64,000 bases of DNA from NCBI GenBank assembly GCA_014138095.1, contig JACGXE010000004.1:124001-188000 (forward strand), read 5' to 3'. Positions 1 to 12,146 of the stretch are shown here, one piece after another. Positions within the stretch are counted from its first letter, which is position 1. The number at the start of each line of letters is the position of its first letter. This DNA is from Ochrobactrum sp. RH2CCR150 (GTDB taxonomy: Bacteria > Pseudomonadota > Alphaproteobacteria > Rhizobiales > Rhizobiaceae). Under the pieces are notes generated by a model. The model had not been told where the DNA came from. It saw nothing but the letters and a program-made list of their open reading frames with translations, and made no database searches. A program made the translations under genes and the position numbers.

Positions 1-1531
1 TCTTGGCTGAATCAATGAAATAAATTTCTCCATCTTCGCCCGTCTGTGCAATCACCTCCTGTGTTGCTTTATCTGGAGAGAAAGACGCCGCAAAACACAA
101 ATATGACTTCGGTTGATAGATTAACTCAACTGGAGAACCGTCAGGCTTGAATATCACATGAGACATATAATTTCCGCCATTCTGTTCGCTCTCGACCAAT
201 CGAACGAAGACAAAAGCTCGTGGTTCTTCCAGTCGTACACTGTCACAAACTGGTTGAATGCAAACTAAATATTGATTAAGATTAACGTCATATACAATAC
301 TACCAAGCTTCAAAGACCGTTGAGTAGCGCCGTAGAACGTTCGGCTCGCCATCAAATGTGAGAAGCGATGATTGGCATCTGAACCCTCAGTAGGCAGTAG
401 AACTTTCGCAGCCTTCCTCGTATTCTTTACTTCACTAAGTTTTGGTATAACACTGTTCTTCTCTCTAGCTTTCTTAAAACCTAAGGTGCAAATATCCTCG
501 GCAATTTCCCTATAATTTAGACCCTCTTGGTTTAGAACAGAACCAAGATGCTCCCCTGGCGTCCATACGTTCTGGCACCAATCTCTGAAGATATTTTCAC
601 GTATCAAAGGCTTAGGTAAAGCATCTTCTAGAACGGCTTCAATCTCGGAGACTAGAAGCGGAATAACGTGCGAGGAAGCGTCTTCTCCAGGCAATGACAT
701 TGCCAAATGGGTCAAAAATGCAGGATCAAGATCCCTATTAAATTTAGAAAGGATTTTGCGGCTGTTCTTCCGGATTTCTGCAAGGCCAAGAAGCGCTGTG
801 GCATGCATTATGCCCGACGCTAGTTTCGCAAACTCACGTACCGCGACGTCGGCGAGATGTATCTCATTCACTACATGACGAGGATCAATATCGACCCTTT
901 CCCGCCCCGGCTTTCCAAGAACCGCGACCCGACTGTTGTCTGTATGAAACGCAAGGCCTTCCTCTTCTTGTAGTGGTCGAAAACTATCGCCAATTGAAGG
1001 GTGAACCTTTTGATATATTTCATTTGCCACCCCAAACAAATTTGGCTCTTGGGTGTAGACTAGGATCAAACGTAACTGTTCAGGAACATCCTTCAGTGCC
1101 TGAACTATTAAACCATCAATCAATTCGAGCGCACGCTGACCCTTGTCTCCGAAAAGATCCCAATCAACGATCACTACGTCTGCCGCCCTACAAAGAGGAA
1201 ATATGTCTGACGCGGGACCAAAACTTGCTGGTTTCTTTGGCTGGTACAACGAACAGACAATTTGTTTCTTCGCAAAGCTATTAACGATATCATACGAATC
1301 TGGAGCCGGGTCTTCTTCTGGAACGGCTTCGGGGGCCACTTGGCTCTGATCGCCCTCTGTAGAGAGTCGTCTCGACGCCATTTTTCGCAATTTCGGAGCC
1401 AAAACCTGTTTCGGTGCGCCACCGCTAGCTGGAGCACTCTGGTAAATTCTATCATCTACAAAAACTGCAGTCTGAATAAAAGACTGCGCTGCTTGCGTCG
1501 AATAGTCTTGTACAGTTTCAGTCAGCACCAT
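1..1531 (-). CDS. Receiver-like domain protein, partial (runs off left edge)
   Basis: Translating the minus strand from ATG at 1531 gives 510 codons with no stop to the window edge, so the C-terminus is missing. Residues 20-215 read as a response-regulator receiver fold: acidic pair D26-D27 after a hydrophobic strand (AVFVDD), phospho-acceptor D123 in VIVDWDLFGDKG, the switch threonine T160 in LILVYTQEP, and the lysine-proline K207-P208 in VAVLGKP. The first loop carries an insertion of roughly 50 residues, so this is a divergent receiver. The remaining 295 residues are not recognised; they include a CIQPVCDSVR motif (C424, C429). The ATG has a GGGGA ribosome site and overlaps the end of the ATPase gene by 14 bases, implying translational coupling. 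Its inferred job is to accept phosphate or a conformational signal from that ATPase. Confidence 0.8.
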   Translation of the reverse strand, partial: MVLTETVQDYSTQAAQSFIQTAVFVDDRIYQSAPASGGAPKQVLAPKLRKMASRRLSTEGDQSQVAPEAVPEEDPAPDSYDIVNSFAKKQIVCSLYQPKKPASFGPASDIFPLCRAADVVIVDWDLFGDKGQRALELIDGLIVQALKDVPEQLRLILVYTQEPNLFGVANEIYQKVHPSIGDSFRPLQEEEGLAFHTDNSRVAVLGKPGRERVDIDPRHVVNEIHLADVAVREFAKLASGIMHATALLGLAEIRKNSRKILSKFNRDLDPAFLTHLAMSLPGEDASSHVIPLLVSEIEAVLEDALPKPLIRENIFRDWCQNVWTPGEHLGSVLNQEGLNYREIAEDICTLGFKKAREKNSVIPKLSEVKNTRKAAKVLLPTEGSDANHRFSHLMASRTFYGATQRSLKLGSIVYDVNLNQYLVCIQPVCDSVRLEEPRAFVFVRLVESEQNGGNYMSHVIFKPDGSPVELIYQPKSYLCFAASFSPDKATQEVIAQTGEDGEIYFIDSAK

Positions 1532-4487
1532 CGTTCCCCGGCCAGCTAATTACCATCGTTACGCCACGTTTTTCAGAGTTGGGCAAAATATCAATTTCCA
1601 TGCCCTCCTTTTGAAGAGCTTTTCTCGAAATATAAAGTCCGAGTCCTCTGCCGCCCGGTTTTCTAGTAAATCCCTGATCGAATATTGCGGATGAATCCCT
1701 TTGATTAATAGAAGGCCCGTTGTTTGAGATACGAAAACTTTTCTCGTCCGCATCAAGAATAATTTCCTTCTTACCGTCAATATTCTCAAGCCAAAATACG
1801 GCATTATCGATTATGTTTACAAAAACGGGATAAATTGTAGATGGAAATACTGTAATTTGCGATTGAAGGAAGGCATCACTTGCTGAAAGAACGACGTTAT
1901 GCCGTTTCATACGAACTTCAAATAGCGTATGAAGGTAATGATTTATCTCTGATCCTTTGATCGGGATCGCTTTTCGATAAAGCCTTCGTTGCAGCGGTGT
2001 AAAAAGATTAAGATGACCATCGAGATGGTCAAAGTTATTACGAATATCCCTATACAAAATAGAAAGTTCGTCATTTGAACTTGCCCATGGCCGAAGTTCT
2101 CGAAGAGATCTTCGGACGCCCTTTATCGCAGCCTCAAATTCATGATTGATAACTGCAACCGCTAATCCCAGCTGCACCATCTCGGCATCGGTATCAGCTT
2201 GCTCTCTGAGATCCTGAAGTTCCTGATCTAAAGCTTCAACGATATCGGAGTCCGATATATCGAAGCCTTGGTCGATATTGGCAGATATTGCCGTCAGCAT
2301 ATCTCTGACTTTGGAAAGAGTTTCTCGGTTCTTCTTACCTACTGATTCAATTCGTCCTTCGTATGTGTCGCGTAACCGTTCGATCTGATCTTCAGAAAGG
2401 TCGACAAGATCTTTTTGTGCAAACTCCACTTCGACTGCAGAAATTGTTTCCTGCATTTCCCGAATTGCGTCACGCGCGAACTTAAGTGCAGAAGACCTTG
2501 TCTCGTTAGCTAAACTTCTGACTTGCCCTGCTTCTTGGGTAACAGCCTTCCTTCGACTATCCGCACTTTGACGGATAAGTTCACCCAAGCGCTTCCTTTG
2601 ATCGACATAGAGCTTTGCTTCCTTAGCAACCGCGCCAAGTGTCGTAGCCACCTCTGTAACGAAGGGATCAAAGAGTTCTTTATCCAATCGCTCAATCTCT
2701 GCTGTATAAGCGTTCCAATCGCGTTGAAGGGGTTTAGACAAGCCAACACCTCGCGGCTTTGACAAGCGATAGCTCTCACGGATTTCGTCAAGTCGGCGAC
2801 CTGCTTCCCTTTCAGCGTCTAGCAAAGCAGATGAAGCTTCGTCCGGGTCTTTCAGCCTTGCCGCTGTTTCCATACGAGCTGAAATGTTGGCACGGAGATT
2901 ACTTAGTTCCGTCTCAGGAAGACCTGAGCTTACTCGGTCAAAAAAACCTTCAAGTGACGCCGCTATACTTCTCCGCTTAGTCGAAACTTGCTTTTCTCTG
3001 CGACGCCGGGCCAGCTCGAGGCGTTCCAACTCCGAGCGTTGTTCGGTATAGATTTCTGAATAGTCGCCAGAATCTCTGAAGAAGTCAGCAGCAAGTTGCA
3101 GAAAAAGATTCTCAAGGATGTTTCTAAGTTGCCGATAAGCTTTATCTTGCTGAAACCCTTCTCTCCCCGCTTTTTCATGCAAAAAGCCGTTGTCCTGCCG
3201 CGTCAGCTTGACAGCACCAAAAACTCGCCGATGAGAGAAGAAATAATACGAAGCAGATTTAGTTCGCCGTTCCTCGATATTGAGCCAATCAACATCCGAA
3301 TTTCCATAAGGTAAAACTCTAATCCTATCCCGATAAACGTAAATACCCCCAATTTGGTTTAGCTTCTCGCTAATGCGTTTCCACTCATCTGGAGGTAGAG
3401 TAGATTCTCTTTGCGCACCGTTTACGTAGCCAAACTCGATCTCAAACGGGCCACACTTGGTGGGCTGTCCCTGTCCGTCCAGCCATGCAACCGCATGATT
3501 GCGTACATCTTCACCATATATCTTAATGTCACCGAGGAATTGGCCGAATTCGTCAAATCGGCCGCTAATTCTGTGATCGGCGGCTTCCAATTCTTGCTGA
3601 GTAAAGAATTCGCCCTCGCCTATCAAATCCTCACTTGCTGAGTCCGTGGGCCAGTAACGAAATGCAGTCTCTATTGGCGATGGTGGGGATTCTCTGAATA
3701 CGGAATTTGAAAATCCGAGAAGAAACTTAGTAAAATCTTTAGTATTATCCCGGCGCTCTCGGTCAATTTCGTGCGCAATACCATCGTCAGCTGGTGCAAT
3801 GTAAAAATGTGTTCCTGACTCACCGTCCTTGAGGCTAATCCCGCCCAAGAATTCGTCCAAGTTCTGAGGGTCTACTTGAAAATCGGATATATCGTTCAAT
3901 ATTCTCTTATATGAGACGTCATCCGCGTTTCCTGACAGCCCCTTAATGCAGTCAGTCATTCCTCCAAGCAATTCTTCGACATCATCCGATGTAGGGAGCC
4001 GCCCTCCTGTAATGTGCTTAATCGGAATCTCAATATCTTCTAAATTGATTCCCGAAATTTCAAATAAACCCCAATGAATGAAACACATAACAAGATCTTG
4101 TGCTTCTCCGTTGCGTATAGCGCGCGTGAGAATAAGTACCTGTCGCCCAAGCAACGCTATTGCGAGACGCCCAATACCCTTCTCTCCCATGATCGCGCGC
4201 TCTGGCTTATCGGCGGGCCGATAAGCATCCGGTTTCTGACCGGGAGCGGCATATTTACTCTCCGTCCCCAAAACGAGCCAACGGTTCTCGAACTCTTCTG
4301 GTGTCATACCGACGCCGTTGTCACGTATAACTAGAAGATTATCCGAACGAAAATAGTCGACTTCAGCATGATCAGCATAGGCATCGTGAGCGTTCTTAAA
4401 CAATTCACTGATAGCAGTTGATATATTGGCAATCTGCTGGCGACCCAGCATATCGACAGTTCGTGCTCTAGTACGAAATTTCGCCAT
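1518..4487 (-). CDS. Dual GHKL ATPase: MORC/Hsp90-like N-terminus, histidine-kinase-like C-terminus
   Basis: A protein of 989 residues. The N-terminal GHKL module shows the N-box (ELFKNAHDAY, about residues 28-37), G1 box DNGVGM (56-61) and a GEKGIGRLA box near residue 100, the pattern of Hsp90/MutL/MORC ATPases. A long charged, coiled-coil-like middle (about 480-720) follows. The C-terminus resembles a histidine kinase: INHEF with H782 as possible phospho-acceptor, a second N-box (NIIDNAVFW, N895), a degenerate G1 (NNGPS) and G2 GGRGLGL (945-951). I chose ATG at 4487, two bases after the methyltransferase stop and with AGG upstream; a TTG at 4502 is also open. GHKL ATPases beside cytosine methylases are known from restriction-like islands; pairing with a receiver protein suggests a phosphorelay. 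Function is inferred, not known. Confidence 0.82.
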   Translation of the reverse strand: MAKFRTRARTVDMLGRQQIANISTAISELFKNAHDAYADHAEVDYFRSDNLLVIRDNGVGMTPEEFENRWLVLGTESKYAAPGQKPDAYRPADKPERAIMGEKGIGRLAIALLGRQVLILTRAIRNGEAQDLVMCFIHWGLFEISGINLEDIEIPIKHITGGRLPTSDDVEELLGGMTDCIKGLSGNADDVSYKRILNDISDFQVDPQNLDEFLGGISLKDGESGTHFYIAPADDGIAHEIDRERRDNTKDFTKFLLGFSNSVFRESPPSPIETAFRYWPTDSASEDLIGEGEFFTQQELEAADHRISGRFDEFGQFLGDIKIYGEDVRNHAVAWLDGQGQPTKCGPFEIEFGYVNGAQRESTLPPDEWKRISEKLNQIGGIYVYRDRIRVLPYGNSDVDWLNIEERRTKSASYYFFSHRRVFGAVKLTRQDNGFLHEKAGREGFQQDKAYRQLRNILENLFLQLAADFFRDSGDYSEIYTEQRSELERLELARRRREKQVSTKRRSIAASLEGFFDRVSSGLPETELSNLRANISARMETAARLKDPDEASSALLDAEREAGRRLDEIRESYRLSKPRGVGLSKPLQRDWNAYTAEIERLDKELFDPFVTEVATTLGAVAKEAKLYVDQRKRLGELIRQSADSRRKAVTQEAGQVRSLANETRSSALKFARDAIREMQETISAVEVEFAQKDLVDLSEDQIERLRDTYEGRIESVGKKNRETLSKVRDMLTAISANIDQGFDISDSDIVEALDQELQDLREQADTDAEMVQLGLAVAVINHEFEAAIKGVRRSLRELRPWASSNDELSILYRDIRNNFDHLDGHLNLFTPLQRRLYRKAIPIKGSEINHYLHTLFEVRMKRHNVVLSASDAFLQSQITVFPSTIYPVFVNIIDNAVFWLENIDGKKEIILDADEKSFRISNNGPSINQRDSSAIFDQGFTRKPGGRGLGLYISRKALQKEGMEIDILPNSEKRGVTMVISWPGNDGAD

Positions 4488-4489
4488 AT

Positions 4490-5539
4490 CTAACCTGCGC
4501 AATGCTTTGCATGGGAGACAATATGAGCACCAAAAGCCTGCGCCAACACAACCGGCACGGCATTACCAATTTGCTTAGCCTGAGAATTCAGAGAACCCAA
4601 AAACTCGAACGTATCTGGAAAGGTTTGAAGCGATGCAGCCTCTCGCACGCTGATTGCGCGATCTTGCTCAGGATGTCCATAACGTCCGTTAGAAAGGCTT
4701 ATGCATCGTGTCGTCAATCCAGTAGCTGGACCATCCCACCTCATACGTCCATAGACATCAGTATGCCCTGAATAACCCGTCTTGGTGTGGCAATGTAGCC
4801 GCAATTCGGTTGGCCAATCTGCACGCGTTCCTTCTATAGGAGTAGCTCTTATTCTCTTTAGGTTGATTTCGGATAGACTCGCCGCTCGGTGATTTAGAAT
4901 TACTGGATGTGTTTCTCCGGCTCTAATGGCCGGAAGATGAGCAATCCAATCCCTCACTGTGCTATACCCCGTTCCAGCCTGAGGACCGTGCGTTTCATCT
5001 GGCAGATTAATTTCACCATGTTTAGACGCGAGCAACACTAGCCGCCTTCGTCGCTGAGGAACGCCATATCTTTGAGCTTCAATAATTCCAACAGCAGTCT
5101 TATAGCCCAAGGCTTCTAAACGCTTAATGAAACGGGTAAGTGTGCTATTGCCTGCCACCTTCTGTATGCCTGGAACATTTTCAACGAATATGTAATCTGG
5201 AAGAAATCGCTCTACCTGCAACCCGAAATATGAAAGCAAGGATCTTCGAAGGTCAGTTTTTTTATCCGGCTTTTGTGTATTTTGCCTTGTGAAGGGTTGG
5301 CACGGCGCGCAACCACAGAAGAGTTTGATGTCGTATGACTTAACCAAATCTTCGATTTCTTCTGGATTAAACCGCGTTATATCGGTTGAACTAAATACAG
5401 TTTGCGGAAAATTTTTTTGAAAAGTAGCTCCAGCATCTTTATCAAAGTCAAGTGCAAACGCAGGAACCAGTCCTGCTGCTTGAAAACCTTTACTGGTCCC
5501 CCCACACCCTGAAAAGAAATCAAACACACCTATATTCAT
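4490..5539 (-). CDS. dcm: DNA (cytosine-5-)-methyltransferase
   Basis: A 349-residue C5-cytosine methyltransferase. Motif I is FDFFSGCGG (residues 6-14), the catalytic cysteine is C80 in GCAPCQPFT, motif VI is ENVPGI (120-125), motif VIII is QRRRRLVLL (162-170), and the C-terminal motifs AASLQTFPD and QIGNAVP are present, so the enzyme should be active. The recognition sequence cannot be read from the sequence. It is first in a tightly packed leftward operon with the GHKL ATPase and the receiver-like protein. No restriction endonuclease is visible in the window, although one could lie further left. The symbol is a family label and does not imply CCWGG specificity. The region is richer in AT than the core chromosome to the right, consistent with horizontal acquisition. 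Confidence 0.93.
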   Translation of the reverse strand: MNIGVFDFFSGCGGTSKGFQAAGLVPAFALDFDKDAGATFQKNFPQTVFSSTDITRFNPEEIEDLVKSYDIKLFCGCAPCQPFTRQNTQKPDKKTDLRRSLLSYFGLQVERFLPDYIFVENVPGIQKVAGNSTLTRFIKRLEALGYKTAVGIIEAQRYGVPQRRRRLVLLASKHGEINLPDETHGPQAGTGYSTVRDWIAHLPAIRAGETHPVILNHRAASLSEINLKRIRATPIEGTRADWPTELRLHCHTKTGYSGHTDVYGRMRWDGPATGLTTRCISLSNGRYGHPEQDRAISVREAASLQTFPDTFEFLGSLNSQAKQIGNAVPVVLAQAFGAHIVSHAKHCAG

Positions 5540-5714: not shown

Positions 5715-6224
5715 TTACAGCTTGGCTCCCCGATTTTCGGCTGCCGCGCTGCGTCTTGGACGCCCGATATGCTTGCCTTTGCGGCGCGCGGCTTCCATAC
5801 CCGCTTTTGTGCGCTCACTTATCAAAGATCGCTCAAATTCTGACAATGCAGCCAATAGATGGAAAACCAGCCTCCCTCCAGATGAAGAAGTATCTATGTT
5901 CTCTGTCATAGATTTGAATTCGACGCCGTCCCTTCCCAATGAATTGACCAGATCGACCAGATGAATGAGCGACCTACCCAGTCTGTCCAACCGCCATACA
6001 ACCAAGGTATCGCCCTTTTTGAGCCTTTTCAGTACTTTCTGGAGGCCTGGTCGCTCGGTCGAAGCGCCAGAAACGCCTTGATCAATAAAGATCGGATCGC
6101 AACCCGCTTTCTTCAGGGCGTCAAGTTGCAGATCCAGCTTTTGCCCGTCAGTGGATACCCTTGCGTAACCGATTTTCAATGTATTTTCTCTTGGTCTTTT
6201 CCTAATAATTTTACCGTTATCCAT
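5715..6224 (-). CDS. Serine recombinase (resolvase/invertase), lacking the C-terminal HTH
   Basis: A small serine recombinase of 169 residues. The catalytic serine is S24 in YARVSTDGQ, and the catalytic arginines sit in WRLDRLGRSL; the long helix E ends with MEAARRKGKHIGRP. In Tn3/Pin-type enzymes GRP is followed by about 40 residues of helix-turn-helix that bind the recombination site. Here only RRSAAAENRGAKL follows before the stop, and the sequence beyond the stop shows no continuation in another frame that I can recognise. I chose the internal ATG at 6224 because an upstream start at 6275 would add a tail absent from the family and would run into the inverted repeat. It may be a decayed resolvase or one needing a partner to bind DNA. 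Confidence 0.85.
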   Translation of the reverse strand: MDNGKIIRKRPRENTLKIGYARVSTDGQKLDLQLDALKKAGCDPIFIDQGVSGASTERPGLQKVLKRLKKGDTLVVWRLDRLGRSLIHLVDLVNSLGRDGVEFKSMTENIDTSSSGGRLVFHLLAALSEFERSLISERTKAGMEAARRKGKHIGRPRRSAAAENRGAKL

Positions 6225-6251
6225 GAATTTCAAGTCCCAATTCTGTTGACG

Positions 6252-6402
6252 AAAGGGAACGGTTTGAAAACTCAAGGCTGGTCAACGATTTTTCTGGTAA
6301 TTTTATCCAAAAATACTTTTGGTCGGCGGTTTCACTCTCACTTCACAAGAATATCTTCAAGCTGATAATCTTTCGCCGAAATCCTCTGAAACCGTTCCCT
6401 TT
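6252..6402. repeat. 14-bp perfect inverted repeat upstream of the resolvase
   Basis: AAAGGGAACGGTTT at 6252-6265 is matched exactly in inverted orientation by AAACCGTTCCCTTT at 6389-6402, with 123 bases between. It lies just upstream of the recombinase start and could be a recombination site pair, operator or element end; none of these is demonstrated. Confidence 0.6.
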
Positions 6403-6773: not shown

Positions 6774-7250
6774 ATGAAAATGATAAATCAGAATGCTGCG
6801 TTGGTGATGAACAGCGTGCGACAAAGGCAGCGCATTAGCAAAAGTCTGTTTCTAAAAGCCCTGACTGCTGCAGCTTTTGGCGCGTCCTTCACAACGGCCA
6901 GCGCCGCCCCCGACCCTTATGTAGGCGATTACGTCAAGGCTTGCCCCAAAGCGCAATGCACAATTGAAATCACAAAGGAAAAGGACAAAACCTACAATCT
7001 ACGTTTCACCGCAGCCGACACAATGGATGCAGATAAAGTGCTATGTCGCGCTGATATTCCGATGAGGCGCGACAGACTGGAATTCACAGTAAACGAAAAT
7101 TACGACGATGCTTTATCGGGCACATACAAGTCTGATCCACTTATCTGGTTGCTAGCCTTCGATGACGGCAGCATACATTTCTACATCGAGAATGCACCTT
7201 GTGGACGCTTCAATATGGCAGGCGAATATGTTGCATTCGGAGATGAGTGA
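6774..7250 (+). CDS. Predicted secreted protein, unknown
   Basis: A 158-residue protein with a signal peptide: basic residues (RQRQRISK) then a hydrophobic alanine-rich stretch ending near ASAA, so the mature part should start near APDPYVG. The mature domain has four cysteines (in the ACPKAQC stretch, LCRAD and APCGRF) that could form two disulphides in the periplasm. Starts at 6774, 6780 and 6807 are all possible; 6807 gives a more ordinary signal peptide. No family is recognised. It follows the small membrane protein at three bases and is accessory cargo of the element. Confidence 0.6.
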   Translation: MKMINQNAALVMNSVRQRQRISKSLFLKALTAAAFGASFTTASAAPDPYVGDYVKACPKAQCTIEITKEKDKTYNLRFTAADTMDADKVLCRADIPMRRDRLEFTVNENYDDALSGTYKSDPLIWLLAFDDGSIHFYIENAPCGRFNMAGEYVAFGDE

Positions 7251-7704: not shown

Positions 7705-9090
7705 ATGACCCGTTTCGGAGAGGATGCGCTACGCTCCGGTGCTCCCCGAGATGCGAAGACCGAAGCAGCGCTTGAGGCGCGCGGCGGCAAAAAGCAGACG
7801 TCAAAGGATCACGACGCAGAATTCTTCATCCAGCGTCACAAAGACCAGAAGGCACTGGTGAAAGAGCGTCTTGAAATCGGCTATCGTCGCAATGGCTATA
7901 AGGAATTGTCCGGCCATCAGGTAGGCCCGGTCCGTGAAGATGGTCTGCGTTCCGAAACATTGAAATCCAAAGCAGGCCAGATATTCGTCGCGTCCGTCCC
8001 GCGAGCACGAGATTTGCGAAGCAACTGGGGCAAAGCCACGCTTGAAAAGCTTCACCAAAAGCTGTTGGCATTGGATGAGCCGTATGTAGAAGGAAATCGA
8101 AAGTTCCTTGGTTTCATTCGCATAGACACAGATCGGGTCTGGAATTCGGTTGAAGAATGCCGTTCGTTTTATCGGCTGCTTGCCCGCGATGGAAAGATAG
8201 CCTGTGAACCGCATTTCCTCGTCGGCCTGAAACTGCGCGACGGACGTTTCATCCGCCCCCATGCAATATGGCTGTTACCCCATGGTTCCGCTATCTGGAA
8301 CGAACCCGGCAAGACAGGTTGGAGGCGTGGCCCTGTCGATCTGTTCCGTGCGGTCTATTTCGGTTTGTGCCATGCCCTGCTTGAAGCCGGGGCAGACAGC
8401 GGTGCACCTGCGACGTCGCAACAGGTCAAATGCCCGCTTTCGCCGGAGTGGCATACCATTTGCCCGCAAGAAACCAGCTTTCCAGACCTATCGGAACATG
8501 CCGAATATCTCGAACTCAATCACACGCGAGAAACGCTTCTACGCCGTGCTGCTTCGGTGCAGTCCGGCATGGGAGTTGTCCAGAGCAACGAGATTTTCAA
8601 CGCACTCCAGAAGTGGGCCTATGCCGTTCTGACAAACTGGCATTTTTCTGGTGAAGCTGAATTCATAGCTGCGCAGAAAAACGGACGCCTGGGAGCAATT
8701 GTCGACAGGCTGCATGTTCAACTGGAACATTTCGTTGCACCCAGCGAGTTGAAGCTGAAAAAGAAGCAGCGCGACAAGCTTCCCCTCCTGATTGCGAAGG
8801 TTGCCGCATATGCCGTGGCAGCCTGGTCGCCGGAGAAGGCGCAACAGTCGAGAAAGAACCGTGGCGCAGCCATCCACATGGTGCAAGGGCTAGAAAGCCT
8901 GAAAGAACGTCAATCTGTCGGCGGACGATATGCGGCTCATAAAAACGCAGAACGCGCACAAAATGCCATTGAGAGCGCGATAAAACGCCTGTCTGGCAAT
9001 GGCACTGCCATCACCAAGGGCAATGTTGCACGTGAAAGCGGCATCAGCCGCCCCACCATCAATAAATACTGGCAGACATTGGCGAAGTGA
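7705..9090 (+). CDS. Primase-like (AEP-fold) plasmid replicase / RepA-like protein
   Basis: A 461-residue protein. The central part shows features of archaeo-eukaryotic primase-type plasmid replicases: an acidic DxD motif, D141/D143, in FIRIDTDRVW, and a histidine motif at H186 in RPHAIWLLP, spaced about 45 residues apart. The C-terminus (about 405-461) has a helix-turn-helix-like end, ITKGNVARESGISRPTINKY, likely to bind DNA. This is the usual layout of a replicase that starts synthesis at its own origin. It follows a hairpin-rich leader and precedes the mobilisation genes, implying that the element replicates at least transiently after excision or during transfer. Family assignment rests on motifs only; the start at 7705 has no strong ribosome site. 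Confidence 0.65.
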   Translation: MTRFGEDALRSGAPRDAKTEAALEARGGKKQTSKDHDAEFFIQRHKDQKALVKERLEIGYRRNGYKELSGHQVGPVREDGLRSETLKSKAGQIFVASVPRARDLRSNWGKATLEKLHQKLLALDEPYVEGNRKFLGFIRIDTDRVWNSVEECRSFYRLLARDGKIACEPHFLVGLKLRDGRFIRPHAIWLLPHGSAIWNEPGKTGWRRGPVDLFRAVYFGLCHALLEAGADSGAPATSQQVKCPLSPEWHTICPQETSFPDLSEHAEYLELNHTRETLLRRAASVQSGMGVVQSNEIFNALQKWAYAVLTNWHFSGEAEFIAAQKNGRLGAIVDRLHVQLEHFVAPSELKLKKKQRDKLPLLIAKVAAYAVAAWSPEKAQQSRKNRGAAIHMVQGLESLKERQSVGGRYAAHKNAERAQNAIESAIKRLSGNGTAITKGNVARESGISRPTINKYWQTLAK

Positions 9091-9450: not shown

Positions 9451-9642
9451 ATGGACAGTTTTTATGAAGATTTGATCGAGGCAAATTTCGTAGCTTGGCA
9501 GCATGAGATCAATGCGCTTGAGCATGATCCTTCCCGCCGTGCCGACTATGAAAAAGCCCTGCGCGAGCGGAACGCAGGACGCGAAGAGTTCGAACGCGTG
9601 AAACGTGAAAAGCGGGAGGCACGATTGAATGTCCGCCTCTAA
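9451..9642 (+). CDS. Small charged helical protein in mobilisation operon
   Basis: A 63-residue, highly charged, probably all-helical protein, rich in Glu, Arg and Lys (REEFERVKREKREAR near the end). ATG 9451 is chosen because GGAG lies seven bases upstream; the frame opens earlier but without a ribosome site. Its end overlaps the start of the MobC-like gene by 14 bases, so it belongs to the same transcript. Function unknown; an accessory role in mobilisation is inferred from position only. Confidence 0.6.
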   Translation: MDSFYEDLIEANFVAWQHEINALEHDPSRRADYEKALRERNAGREEFERVKREKREARLNVRL

Positions 9643-9991
9643 TTCTCGCAAAGCTACTCAGGTTCTTACATTCAGGATGACGCCGGATGAGGGCGACGCC
9701 TTGCGTGCAGCGGCCAAGGCAAACGGCATTGGTCCCGCCACCTTTGCCCGTCGCGCTGCGTTCAAAGCGGCCAGCCTCCCTTTGCCGGGGTACGAGGCAA
9801 AAGCACCTGATCCTGACAAGATCGACAAAGCCCGGTTGATCGGTGAGATTAATCGGATCGGCTCGAACCTCAACCAGATCGCGAAGATCACCAACCTCAC
9901 CAAACGGGCTCCATCCTCGAAAGAGGTAAAAGTGCTTTTTGCCGAGGTCCGCGCTCTTCGTATCGATATTCTGAAAGCACTGGAAACATGA
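9629..9991 (+). CDS. mobC: MobC-like relaxosome accessory protein
   Basis: A 120-residue protein. Residues 10-45 (VLTFRMTPDEGDALRAAAKA) resemble the ribbon-helix-helix opening of plasmid MobC proteins, and the later INRIGSNLNQIAKITN stretch matches the conserved MobC C-terminal motif (G-N-x-N-Q-I-A). MobC proteins bind near oriT and help the relaxase open the nick region. It overlaps the relaxase start by four bases (ATGA), a common coupling arrangement. Confident at family level. Confidence 0.8.
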   Translation: MSASNSRKATQVLTFRMTPDEGDALRAAAKANGIGPATFARRAAFKAASLPLPGYEAKAPDPDKIDKARLIGEINRIGSNLNQIAKITNLTKRAPSSKEVKVLFAEVRALRIDILKALET

Positions 9992-11409
9992 TCGGGCAAG
10001 CTGTCAGACATGGTCGAAGCGCAAAGGATGCAGAGAATTTGCATGCTCATTTGATGAATGATCGGCGCGTGCGTGTCGAGATTATCAATAGCGCTGCACC
10101 CAATCTGCAATCCGCTATGGATGACATGCTGCTTGCATGCGACGCCTCAAAGGCCGACGCCGCATTTCTTCATCTGTCATTGTCACCAAGCCGCGATATG
10201 ACCGATGGCGAACTGCGGCAGGTTGCGCAGATCGTAATGAAACATTTTTCGGCGGAGGAACACCCGGCCGCATTCGTGCTTCACGACAAGAAACGTTCCA
10301 ACGACAGGGGTAACACCCATGGTCATCTGGTGCTCGGTCGGATCGGCTTCGACGGCCAGGTCATTCCCTCTGGATTTGAGAAAATCAAATTGGAAACGGC
10401 CATGAGGATAGCTGAATTTGAAATGGGCGAGACTGCTACACTTGGTCGTCACCATAAAAGTGCGGTGAAGTGGCTCCGTGCCAACGGCAGAGAAGATGTT
10501 GCTCAATGGCTCGACACAGCCCACCACCCGAATCTGGAAAAGCCTCAATCACCCGTCTCACCTGCCAAGCGCCAGATGATCCAGAGGAAGATCAGCACCG
10601 ACCTGGCTATTGTCACAAGGACTGTTCGCAGCGCTTGGGAAAGGTCGGACGACGTCCAGTCGTTTACCGCAGCACTTTCTGAATCTGATTTTGACGTCGC
10701 ACCGGGAGAAAAGGCTGGCGTCTATGTCGTCTTGAAAGATGGGATCGTTCTTGGCTCCCTTGATCGACTATTAAAAATCAAACGTCGGGAAGTTTCCGAC
10801 CGAATGACGGAAGCGAGCGATATGAAGGGTAAAAATCATGAACCAAAACCAGCCACGAAAACCAGAATCACCAGCAACGATGGGGCAGGCAAAAGCAATC
10901 TACGATCAAGTCGTGGAGCTTCATCCTCTGCTGGACCTGTTGAACGAGCCCGAGCCAGCGGAAGGCGGACCAATCGATCAGCTACTGCAATCACTGGAGT
11001 CGGTACTGGTGGGGCAGCGCCATCTTCTTATGATGATGGAAGATCTGCAAAAGGACGTCAGCGAATTAAAGCGCAGCAGGCGCTGACGTCACTTGATCAG
11101 AGTCGCCTGACAAACAGCACTGTTTTCGCGGCTCAGAGTGTCAGGACGCATAAGCTACTTACGATACGCCACCAGATAAACGACGCTATTCGTAAGATTG
11201 AAGCACACAAATCAGGCTGGAGCTGGATCGAAGAATTCCGGAACGACCTGTTGGAAAAAATCAGAGAAACTCGGCAATACCTTTTTGGCGTCGATGTGCA
11301 GCTATCACCCAGAACCGCCTCAAAACCGTTGAAACGAATAGACGTCAGTCATTCTGACGTCTGGAATGAGGTTCCTGATCCGACATACCAGCCTATGCGG
11401 TTCGGGTAG
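9988..11409 (+). CDS. Relaxase / mobilisation nuclease without N-terminal tyrosine
   Basis: A 473-residue relaxase. The nuclease part is residues 1-190, with a metal-binding histidine motif: H99 in FVLHDKK, then H111 and H113 in THGHLVLGRI. The N-terminus (RHGRSAKDAENLHAHLMND) resembles the opening of relaxases common on rhizobial plasmids. There is no tyrosine before about residue 240, so cleavage cannot use the usual Tyr; H8, H19 or H21 are candidates by analogy with MobV enzymes that use histidine. Residues 275-365 are low-complexity (Ser, Gly, Arg, Thr), and another gene is read there in a second frame. It would nick oriT so the element can be mobilised by a helper system; no type IV secretion genes are in the window. 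Confidence 0.8.
   Translation: MIGQAVRHGRSAKDAENLHAHLMNDRRVRVEIINSAAPNLQSAMDDMLLACDASKADAAFLHLSLSPSRDMTDGELRQVAQIVMKHFSAEEHPAAFVLHDKKRSNDRGNTHGHLVLGRIGFDGQVIPSGFEKIKLETAMRIAEFEMGETATLGRHHKSAVKWLRANGREDVAQWLDTAHHPNLEKPQSPVSPAKRQMIQRKISTDLAIVTRTVRSAWERSDDVQSFTAALSESDFDVAPGEKAGVYVVLKDGIVLGSLDRLLKIKRREVSDRMTEASDMKGKNHEPKPATKTRITSNDGAGKSNLRSSRGASSSAGPVERARASGRRTNRSATAITGVGTGGAAPSSYDDGRSAKGRQRIKAQQALTSLDQSRLTNSTVFAAQSVRTHKLLTIRHQINDAIRKIEAHKSGWSWIEEFRNDLLEKIRETRQYLFGVDVQLSPRTASKPLKRIDVSHSDVWNEVPDPTYQPMRFG
10838..11086 (+). CDS. Small protein nested inside the relaxase gene (MobB-like position)
   Basis: An 82-residue frame lying wholly within the relaxase gene in another frame. It has ATG at 10838 with AAGGG about nine bases upstream. 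The product looks like a real helical protein (IYDQVVELHPLLDLL, then LLMMMEDLQKDVSELKRS), while the relaxase frame over the same bases is low-complexity Ser/Arg/Gly, suggesting that selection acts mainly on the nested frame. Overlapping small mob genes inside relaxase genes are known from ColE1- and RSF1010-type plasmids. It may be an accessory mobilisation protein; no direct homology recognised. Confidence 0.55.
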   Translation: MNQNQPRKPESPATMGQAKAIYDQVVELHPLLDLLNEPEPAEGGPIDQLLQSLESVLVGQRHLLMMMEDLQKDVSELKRSRR

Positions 11410-12056
11410 ACTAGCCCCTTTCCAATTCGATTTTTCATTACCCTTCGACCAGAGCCTCTTGTCTCTAGTCGATTCTGTTGCACAAAACTGGATCAAAAAT
11501 AGAAATTGGAACCTTGGAGCTTCGTGACATTGATGACGTCCCCTGTGTTGCGCTACGCGCACGGCCATGTCCCCTGGACAGGCCTGACCCAGTCTAGGGC
11601 AACGTACCAATATCAACCCGCAACCGGGCTTTCGGCGTCGAAATGTCTAGTTCGTCAACATTCTAACGCACAGAAACCCCTCAAATTTGAGCAAGATTCA
11701 TGTCTGCTGTGCCTTAACCCACCCGAAGTTCGCAGTTATTCTGGAAATCAGGCGATTGAACTCATCATGGCCATAGTCGGTTTGGGTTTGCAGTTGCAGT
11801 TATACAAAGATCGACGCACTACTGCTCAGGCCCAGAGCACGGTGGGATAAACACTTTAATTAATTTAGCGCGATGTCTTCATTTGAATGAAATTTTGCTG
11901 GGCTCATTACGTTAAGGTGATCGCCACCCCAAAACCCACTCATGCAACAAAAAAATTGTTGCGTCATTGTTGCAGATGTAAACAAATTTGTTGCAGGTCG
12001 ATCCTGATAAGCTCGTTTTCTGTCAACTAAATTTGCATAATGATTTTAGTAAGTTA
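11410..12056. other. Element end: non-coding, candidate attachment region
   Basis: This stretch of 647 bases between the relaxase stop and the tRNA has no gene that I trust. A 114-codon frame at 11506-11850 has no ribosome site and a composition unlike a protein. The last part, next to the tRNA, contains phased TTGTTGC repeats listed separately. No integrase gene is found, so it probably lies beyond the left edge or has been lost. Confidence 0.45.
11944..11994. repeat. Phased TTGTTGC repeats beside the tRNA
   Basis: TTGTTGC occurs at 11956-11962, 11967-11973 and 11988-11994, i.e. offsets of 11 and 21 bases (one and two helical turns), plus an inverted copy GCAACAA at 11944-11950. The position about 60-110 bases from the tRNA 3' end suits arm-type binding sites for an integrase or excisionase. 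Confidence 0.5.
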
Positions 12057-12146
12057 TGGCGGAGGGGGTGGGATTCGAACCCACGGTACAGTCTCCTGCA
12101 CGCCGGTTTTCAAGACCGGTGCCTTAAACCGCTCGGCCACCCCTCC
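12057..12146 (-). tRNA. tRNA-Ser (anticodon UGA)
   Basis: The minus strand folds as a class II tRNA: acceptor GGAGGGG pairing with CCCCTCC, D-loop GCCGAGCGGTT, anticodon arm CCGGT-CTTGAAA-ACCGG with anticodon TGA, a long variable arm, T-loop GGTTCGAATCC, discriminator G and an encoded CCA (12057-12059). It reads UCA serine codons. The mobile element abuts its 3' end, a common target for integration. Confidence 0.97.

Follow-up and report, generated by a model that had tools for sequence, protein, structure and literature searches.

Proteins of the HEF_HK and Response_reg_2 families were defined by Bellieny-Rabelo et al. in 2021 (PMC8011034), who proposed that they form a novel two-component-like system. 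The available text of that paper gives 91.6% linkage of the histidine kinase (HK) and the response regulator (RR) over 644 regions, with a C5-cytosine methyltransferase (MTase) usually upstream and Vsr frequent; it ties the system to restriction-modification (R-M) and names paraMORCs as its likely origin. The MORC/paraMORC ATPases of R-M operons were defined by Iyer et al. in 2008 (PMC2292703), in a text from which the words "receiver," "two-component," and "phosphorelay" are absent. Here, we report a further case of the HEF_HK and Response_reg_2 pair, already published as a prediction in 2021, from Ochrobactrum sp. RH2CCR150 (genome, 5.54 Mb), in a 64,000-nucleotide stretch (the window) that spans positions 124001 to 188000 of contig 4 (C4; JACGXE010000004.1). 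An operon in the window encodes a C5 MTase, a soluble HK-like protein with a predicted MORC/MutL-type sensor half (GHKL motifs intact), and a putative receiver protein with the full residue set; on balance, we lean towards regarding the three as a cytoplasmic, DNA-linked two-component defence module on a mobilizable element.

The operon was tight and lay on the minus strand, with transcription in the order MTase, HK-like protein, and RR-like protein. A sequence-only reading of the window had placed three coupled genes at about these coordinates, and a check of the open reading frames (ORFs) found them there (lengths in amino acids [aa]):

4490..5539, minus strand, C5-cytosine DNA methyltransferase, 349 aa (ORF, Pfam, and motif reading)
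1518..4487, minus strand, HK-like protein, 989 aa from a Met-Ala-Lys-Phe start (ORF, Pfam, alignments, and model)
1..1531 plus a leftward extension (gene, L002:17873-19531), minus strand, RR-like protein, 552 aa (ORF, Pfam, alignments, and model)

The MTase stop codon was 2 bp from the HK ATG, and the HK and RR genes overlapped by 14 bp (RR start, 1531; HK end, 1518). The RR protein had 510 aa inside the window and its last 42 aa at L002:17873-17998, the gene reaching 127 bp past the left edge. The same reading held that the system continues past that edge, which was true of these 42 RR codons; beyond the RR end, however, the leftward neighbour was a convergent tyrosine integrase (L002:16701-17798) instead of further system genes, followed by ordinary chromosomal genes, including ABC-transporter and FecCD-type proteins (translations read by eye). 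The MTase matched Pfam DNA_methylase (PF00145; E value, 1e-54), and the letters that we take from general knowledge to be its motifs were all intact, namely, FSGCGG (9), PCQ (79), ENV (120), QRRRR (162), and GNAVP (325).

The soluble HK-like protein matched HATPase_c_3 (E, 5.4e-13), HEF_HK (PF19191; E, 3.1e-28, above the curated cut-off and the single match in the whole genome), and HATPase_c (E, 1.1e-17); Pfam bore out both the MTase identity and the two GHKL modules previously read in the middle protein. Residues 5 to 480 formed an N-terminal MORC/MutL/Hsp90-like GHKL plus S5-like module, which aligned with the Morc3 and MutL modules in a structural comparison of the predicted model. A long helical stretch (about 477 to 739) led to the HEF_HK dimerisation/phosphoacceptor domain, which holds H782, and the C-terminal kinase ATP-binding domain covered residues 838 to 985; the canonical dimerisation/His and kinase ATP-binding parts of a two-component kinase were both present by Pfam and structure, with the His helix poorly modelled. 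The number H782, given correctly by the earlier reading, counts from the Met-Ala-Lys-Phe start of 989 aa (database entry P0121 also has 989 aa), and an upstream TTG at 4502 in the ORF list is an alternative start that yields 994 aa. With GHKL ATP-binding motifs and, after them, an S5-type domain in the model, the N-terminal half is predicted to be paraMORC-like. We did not file it as MORC proper because it departs from the S5 motif GhXhhpXXRhl, the ninth residue from G381 being I389 and the Arg standing one place later (R390; by eye). Pieces similar to the HK also occur in two short gut "Bacteriophage sp." records (MT837790.1 and MT838277.1), and PHROGs 8137 and 7659 match the HK and relatives of the RR.

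The RR-like protein matched Response_reg_2 (PF19192; E, 2.3e-41), again as the single match in the genome. Its receiver domain (residues 18 to 210) carries the Asp pair D26/D27, the acceptor D123, T160, and K207; the position of D123 agreed with that read previously, and the structure model search predicted the receiver fold, whose absence had been named as grounds for dropping the phosphorelay idea. The output region (about 214 to 552) appears private to Response_reg_2 proteins, as 118 of the best 120 of 512 matches to its profile carry that domain. Residues 211 to 552 had no Pfam assignment; the region gave no Pfam match of note (and none to a DNA-binding family), none in NCBIfam, and weak matches only in PHROGs. 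In PADLOC-DB 2.0.0, the RR matched no family at E values up to 1, and the HK had partial matches only (best, 1.5e-8, residues 14 to 117). Compared with solved structures, the output region had no match by sequence, and its best profile matches had E values of 0.18 and 0.87; a Foldseek search with the full-length RR returned nothing at an E value of 0.001 in PDB or viral models, and the VIA matches covered only residues 18 to 240. A MazF-type toxin output, suggested by a weak Foldseek match (9ikd; E, 0.43) and by a similar-looking first strand, was rejected as unsupported: a profile comparison with five proteins of the PemK family gave a probability of 0.2%, which did not exceed that of the controls.

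Conservation was assessed in 61 of the best 120 of 299 matches for the RR and 43 of the best 120 of 3396 for the HK, and in overlapping wide sets of 29 sequences each (the RR set leaves out the truncated or broken RRs of loci L009, L011, and L015, and the HK set leaves out L004 and L006, whose HKs are partial). H782 and D123, whose variation the sequence-only reading had named as grounds for giving up the phosphorelay, were invariant in every full-length homologue aligned; acceptor and catalytic residues were invariant down to 22 to 30% identity. The GHKL motif residues of the MORC-type half were present in all 29 wide HK homologues, as were G410, C429, and D430 of the output region in all 29 wide RR sequences. 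The invariance bears on another kind of restriction system, one whose MORC-type ATPase and RR would work mechanically as a complex on DNA, with no need for phosphate transfer and with His and Asp as remnants that serve structure or regulation. In the accessible text of the respective papers, defence by VcSduA, in which a GHKL ATPase and a nuclease are joined, needs no phosphorelay (PMC12137116), and HK-like proteins without one ATPase domain are reported (PMC8011034), but remnants would not explain acceptor and catalytic residues that hold at such identities, and we regard this mechanical arrangement as quite unlikely.

Gene order was compared over 32 RR-family loci: the window's own, 16 named genome contigs, 14 further genomes, and a viral-collection contig that starts at the RR (L052); L034 to L047 replace the short loci L020 to L033, which were left out together with L048 to L051. 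The HK stood directly upstream of the RR in 31/31 loci with upstream sequence, and a C5 MTase stood beside the pair in all 28 related loci reaching far enough (downstream in L018 and L043). In 11 of 31 loci, a Vsr gene was one of the four genes preceding or the three following the RR (Pfam verified 3 of 13 cluster members, the others being called via clustering); other nuclease neighbours were HNH_2 (L005), Mrr (L042), and HNH_4 (L007). Because the neighbouring nucleases differ between loci while the pair and the MTase stay, the MTase, HK, and RR make up a constant core, and nucleases can be exchanged or missing. Three loci had further features: a Roseovarius relative (L003, 825-5178; identity, 71% for the RR and 82% for the HK) carries an EcoRII-type enzyme, a Vsr, and another C5 MTase immediately upstream of its MTase-HK-RR operon; in Nitrosomonas (L009, 9998-11804), the RR gene falls into several frames next to an intact HK and MTase, either because the copy is broken or through an error in sequencing; and L013 (12372-15908) encodes an 1178-aa protein with type I restriction R-subunit regions (HSDR_N and SWI2/SNF2) and a C-terminal Peptidase_S24-like domain.

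Most response regulators are transcription factors, and the HK and RR might accordingly be a regulator rather than a defence effector, setting how much MTase, or how much of a distinct restriction enzyme, is made or when, in the manner of the control proteins of some R-M systems. Partner nucleases that vary by locus (HNH_2, Mrr, HNH_4, and Vsr, as above) fit such a role, which the 2021 authors also offer, in the text at hand, as speculation (PMC8011034). Nevertheless, the output region lacks a DNA-binding family match in Pfam, a MORC-type ATPase would be costly for mere regulation, and the MTase is here the first gene of the same operon; we consider this explanation unlikely.

The operon was part of a 13,476-bp stretch (C4:122580-136055) bounded by a 66-bp direct repeat that is part of tRNA-Ser(TGA). 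Its other features were as follows:

12056..12121, no strand, right 66-bp repeat copy, inside tRNA-Ser(TGA) (12057-12146, minus strand)
L002:16580-16645, outside the window, left 66-bp repeat copy
5715..6275, minus strand, serine resolvase of the carrier element
7705..9090, plus strand, 461-aa protein with no Pfam match above the cut-off, "replication-like" from its position only
9629..9991, plus strand, NikA-like/MobC mobilisation protein
9988..11409, plus strand, MobA/VirD2-type relaxase

A same-genus genome (G1050) had the left and right flanks joined with no element sequence between them. The carrier is a mobilizable element integrated in tRNA-Ser, and the repeat, integrase, relaxase, and empty site upheld the location on a mobile element proposed from sequence. 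It also encodes a 158-aa protein (window 6774-7250) whose start looks, by eye, like a signal peptide and which matched nothing in Pfam or PADLOC. No restriction nuclease, such as would complete a type II R-M system, was recognised among the carrier-element proteins scanned, although the unassigned output domain of the RR might itself be a nuclease. A single Vsr gene of the host genome lies on another contig, far from the operon (G000:C17:84979-85197), and could act in trans. With such a Vsr, the MTase and the MutL-like ATPase might mend deamination mismatches at methylated cytosines, a form of methylation-linked repair consistent with Vsr near 11 of the 31 loci and with MutL among the structural matches of the HK. 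This account we find very unlikely: Vsr lies outside the element in the present genome and was absent from the genes inspected at 20 of 31 loci, and repair leaves the invariant His-Asp pair without a role.

Counting the genome itself, PF19192 occurred in 5/297 genomes of the family, 5/385 of the class, and 11/398 of the phylum; the family is therefore rare, with a patchy distribution. Neighbouring DNA was about 77% similar to Sinorhizobium/Shinella records, which fits a host in the Rhizobiales. A genome from a different genus of this bacterial family (G491; L045, 4458-8915 and 10903-16818) has a distant MTase-HK-RR adjoining relatives of the element's 461-aa protein (34% identity), MobC, and relaxase (34 to 37% over the set), which hints, with two cases, at one kind of mobilizable element repeatedly carrying MTase-HK-RR.

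We infer phosphotransfer, a defence role, and action by the output domain, the defence role being plausible from context and mobility. In the defence module that we favour, the MORC-type half would close on DNA with ATP and read its state (unmethylated, replicating, or otherwise foreign), upon which the C-terminal ATP-binding domain would autophosphorylate H782. The phosphate would pass to D123 of the RR and free the C-terminal output domain, which might act against the incoming foreign DNA or against the infected cell itself, either unaided or through a recruited nuclease whose gene lies elsewhere; the MTase would mark the DNA of the host and thereby keep the switch off. Several observations weigh against this model. 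In the HK model, the predicted local distance difference test score (pLDDT) was below 50 at residues 759 to 788, and the His helix is placed by Pfam and profile alignment; in 15 of the 29 wide homologues, the present HK included, Asn (N922) takes the place of the Asp in the C-terminal G1 box. A constant MTase next to the pair would be expected just as much were regulation of modification the pair's sole task. The RR output domain has no assigned fold, with the VIA matches confined to residues 18 to 240, so that absence of a known fold is not implied. In 71 HK-RR pairs (effective number, about 34), column pairs between the His domain and the receiver were 2.2-fold enriched in the top 1000, but the 63 observed fall within the 47 to 64 of 12 within-clade shuffles, and covariation was rejected as evidence for a phosphorelay. 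The phosphorelay suggested from sequence has thus gained a predicted receiver fold and invariant H782 and D123 but, with covariation no higher than in the shuffles, remains a prediction. HK and RR distances correlated (r, 0.97; 26 loci), which shared descent explains as well.

A more specific version is possible, although we lean against it: restriction-like immunity without a dedicated restriction enzyme, carried as cargo of the 13.5-kb mobilizable element, in which the MORC-type clamp would be the kinase sensor, cytosine methylation would denote self, and receiver phosphorylation would activate the private output domain (a helical part plus a beta domain with the invariant Cys-Asp) as the killing or cutting part. 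If the mechanism inferred for the favoured module holds, methylation-based self/non-self would be read via a His-Asp phosphorelay with a MORC sensor, instead of by direct cleavage, and the link between methylation and a bacterial, biochemically tractable MORC would be relevant to the question of what MORC proteins detect in eukaryotes. This minimal copy of three genes with defined carrier limits would be a clean unit for testing the mechanism.

Detocs is a two-component phosphorelay in anti-phage defence; to our knowledge, its sensor and effectors are unrelated to the present system. In the literature searched, mostly open-access, we found no experimental study of the HEF_HK/Response_reg_2 pair, and one may exist elsewhere. 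CapK-CapS resembles the present system in having a GHKL kinase that is DNA-activated and tied to bacterial immunity but differs, in the available text, in that CapK transfers phosphate to a serine in a STAS repressor, is activated by single-stranded DNA via helix-turn-helix (HTH)/STAS parts, and has no MORC module or receiver (PMC13373217). In the paraMORC3 Shedu protein VcSduA, too, a GHKL ATPase controls anti-phage activity; its effector, as described in the text at hand, is a fused DUF4263 nuclease, whereas the present system has a His-Asp pair and no recognised nuclease domain (PMC12137116). The paraMORCs of R-M operons, as far as the accessible account goes, share the N-terminal GHKL plus S5-type module, the company of methylase and Vsr in relatives, and a sporadic distribution, and the present protein adds a kinase half and a receiver partner (PMC2292703). 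With the pair described in 2021, judged from the available text, the locus shares the two Pfam families, their order, the HATPase_c_3, HEF_HK, and HATPase_c architecture (group 1 of those authors), the upstream MTase, and solubility; it differs in a carrier element without a recognised Vsr or restriction nuclease (PMC8011034). New here are model-based evidence for the folds of the receiver and of a MORC module that is joined to a histidine kinase, and a minimal copy without a recognised restriction nuclease in a 13.5-kb element whose limits are defined by tRNA-Ser, a 66-bp repeat, and an empty site.
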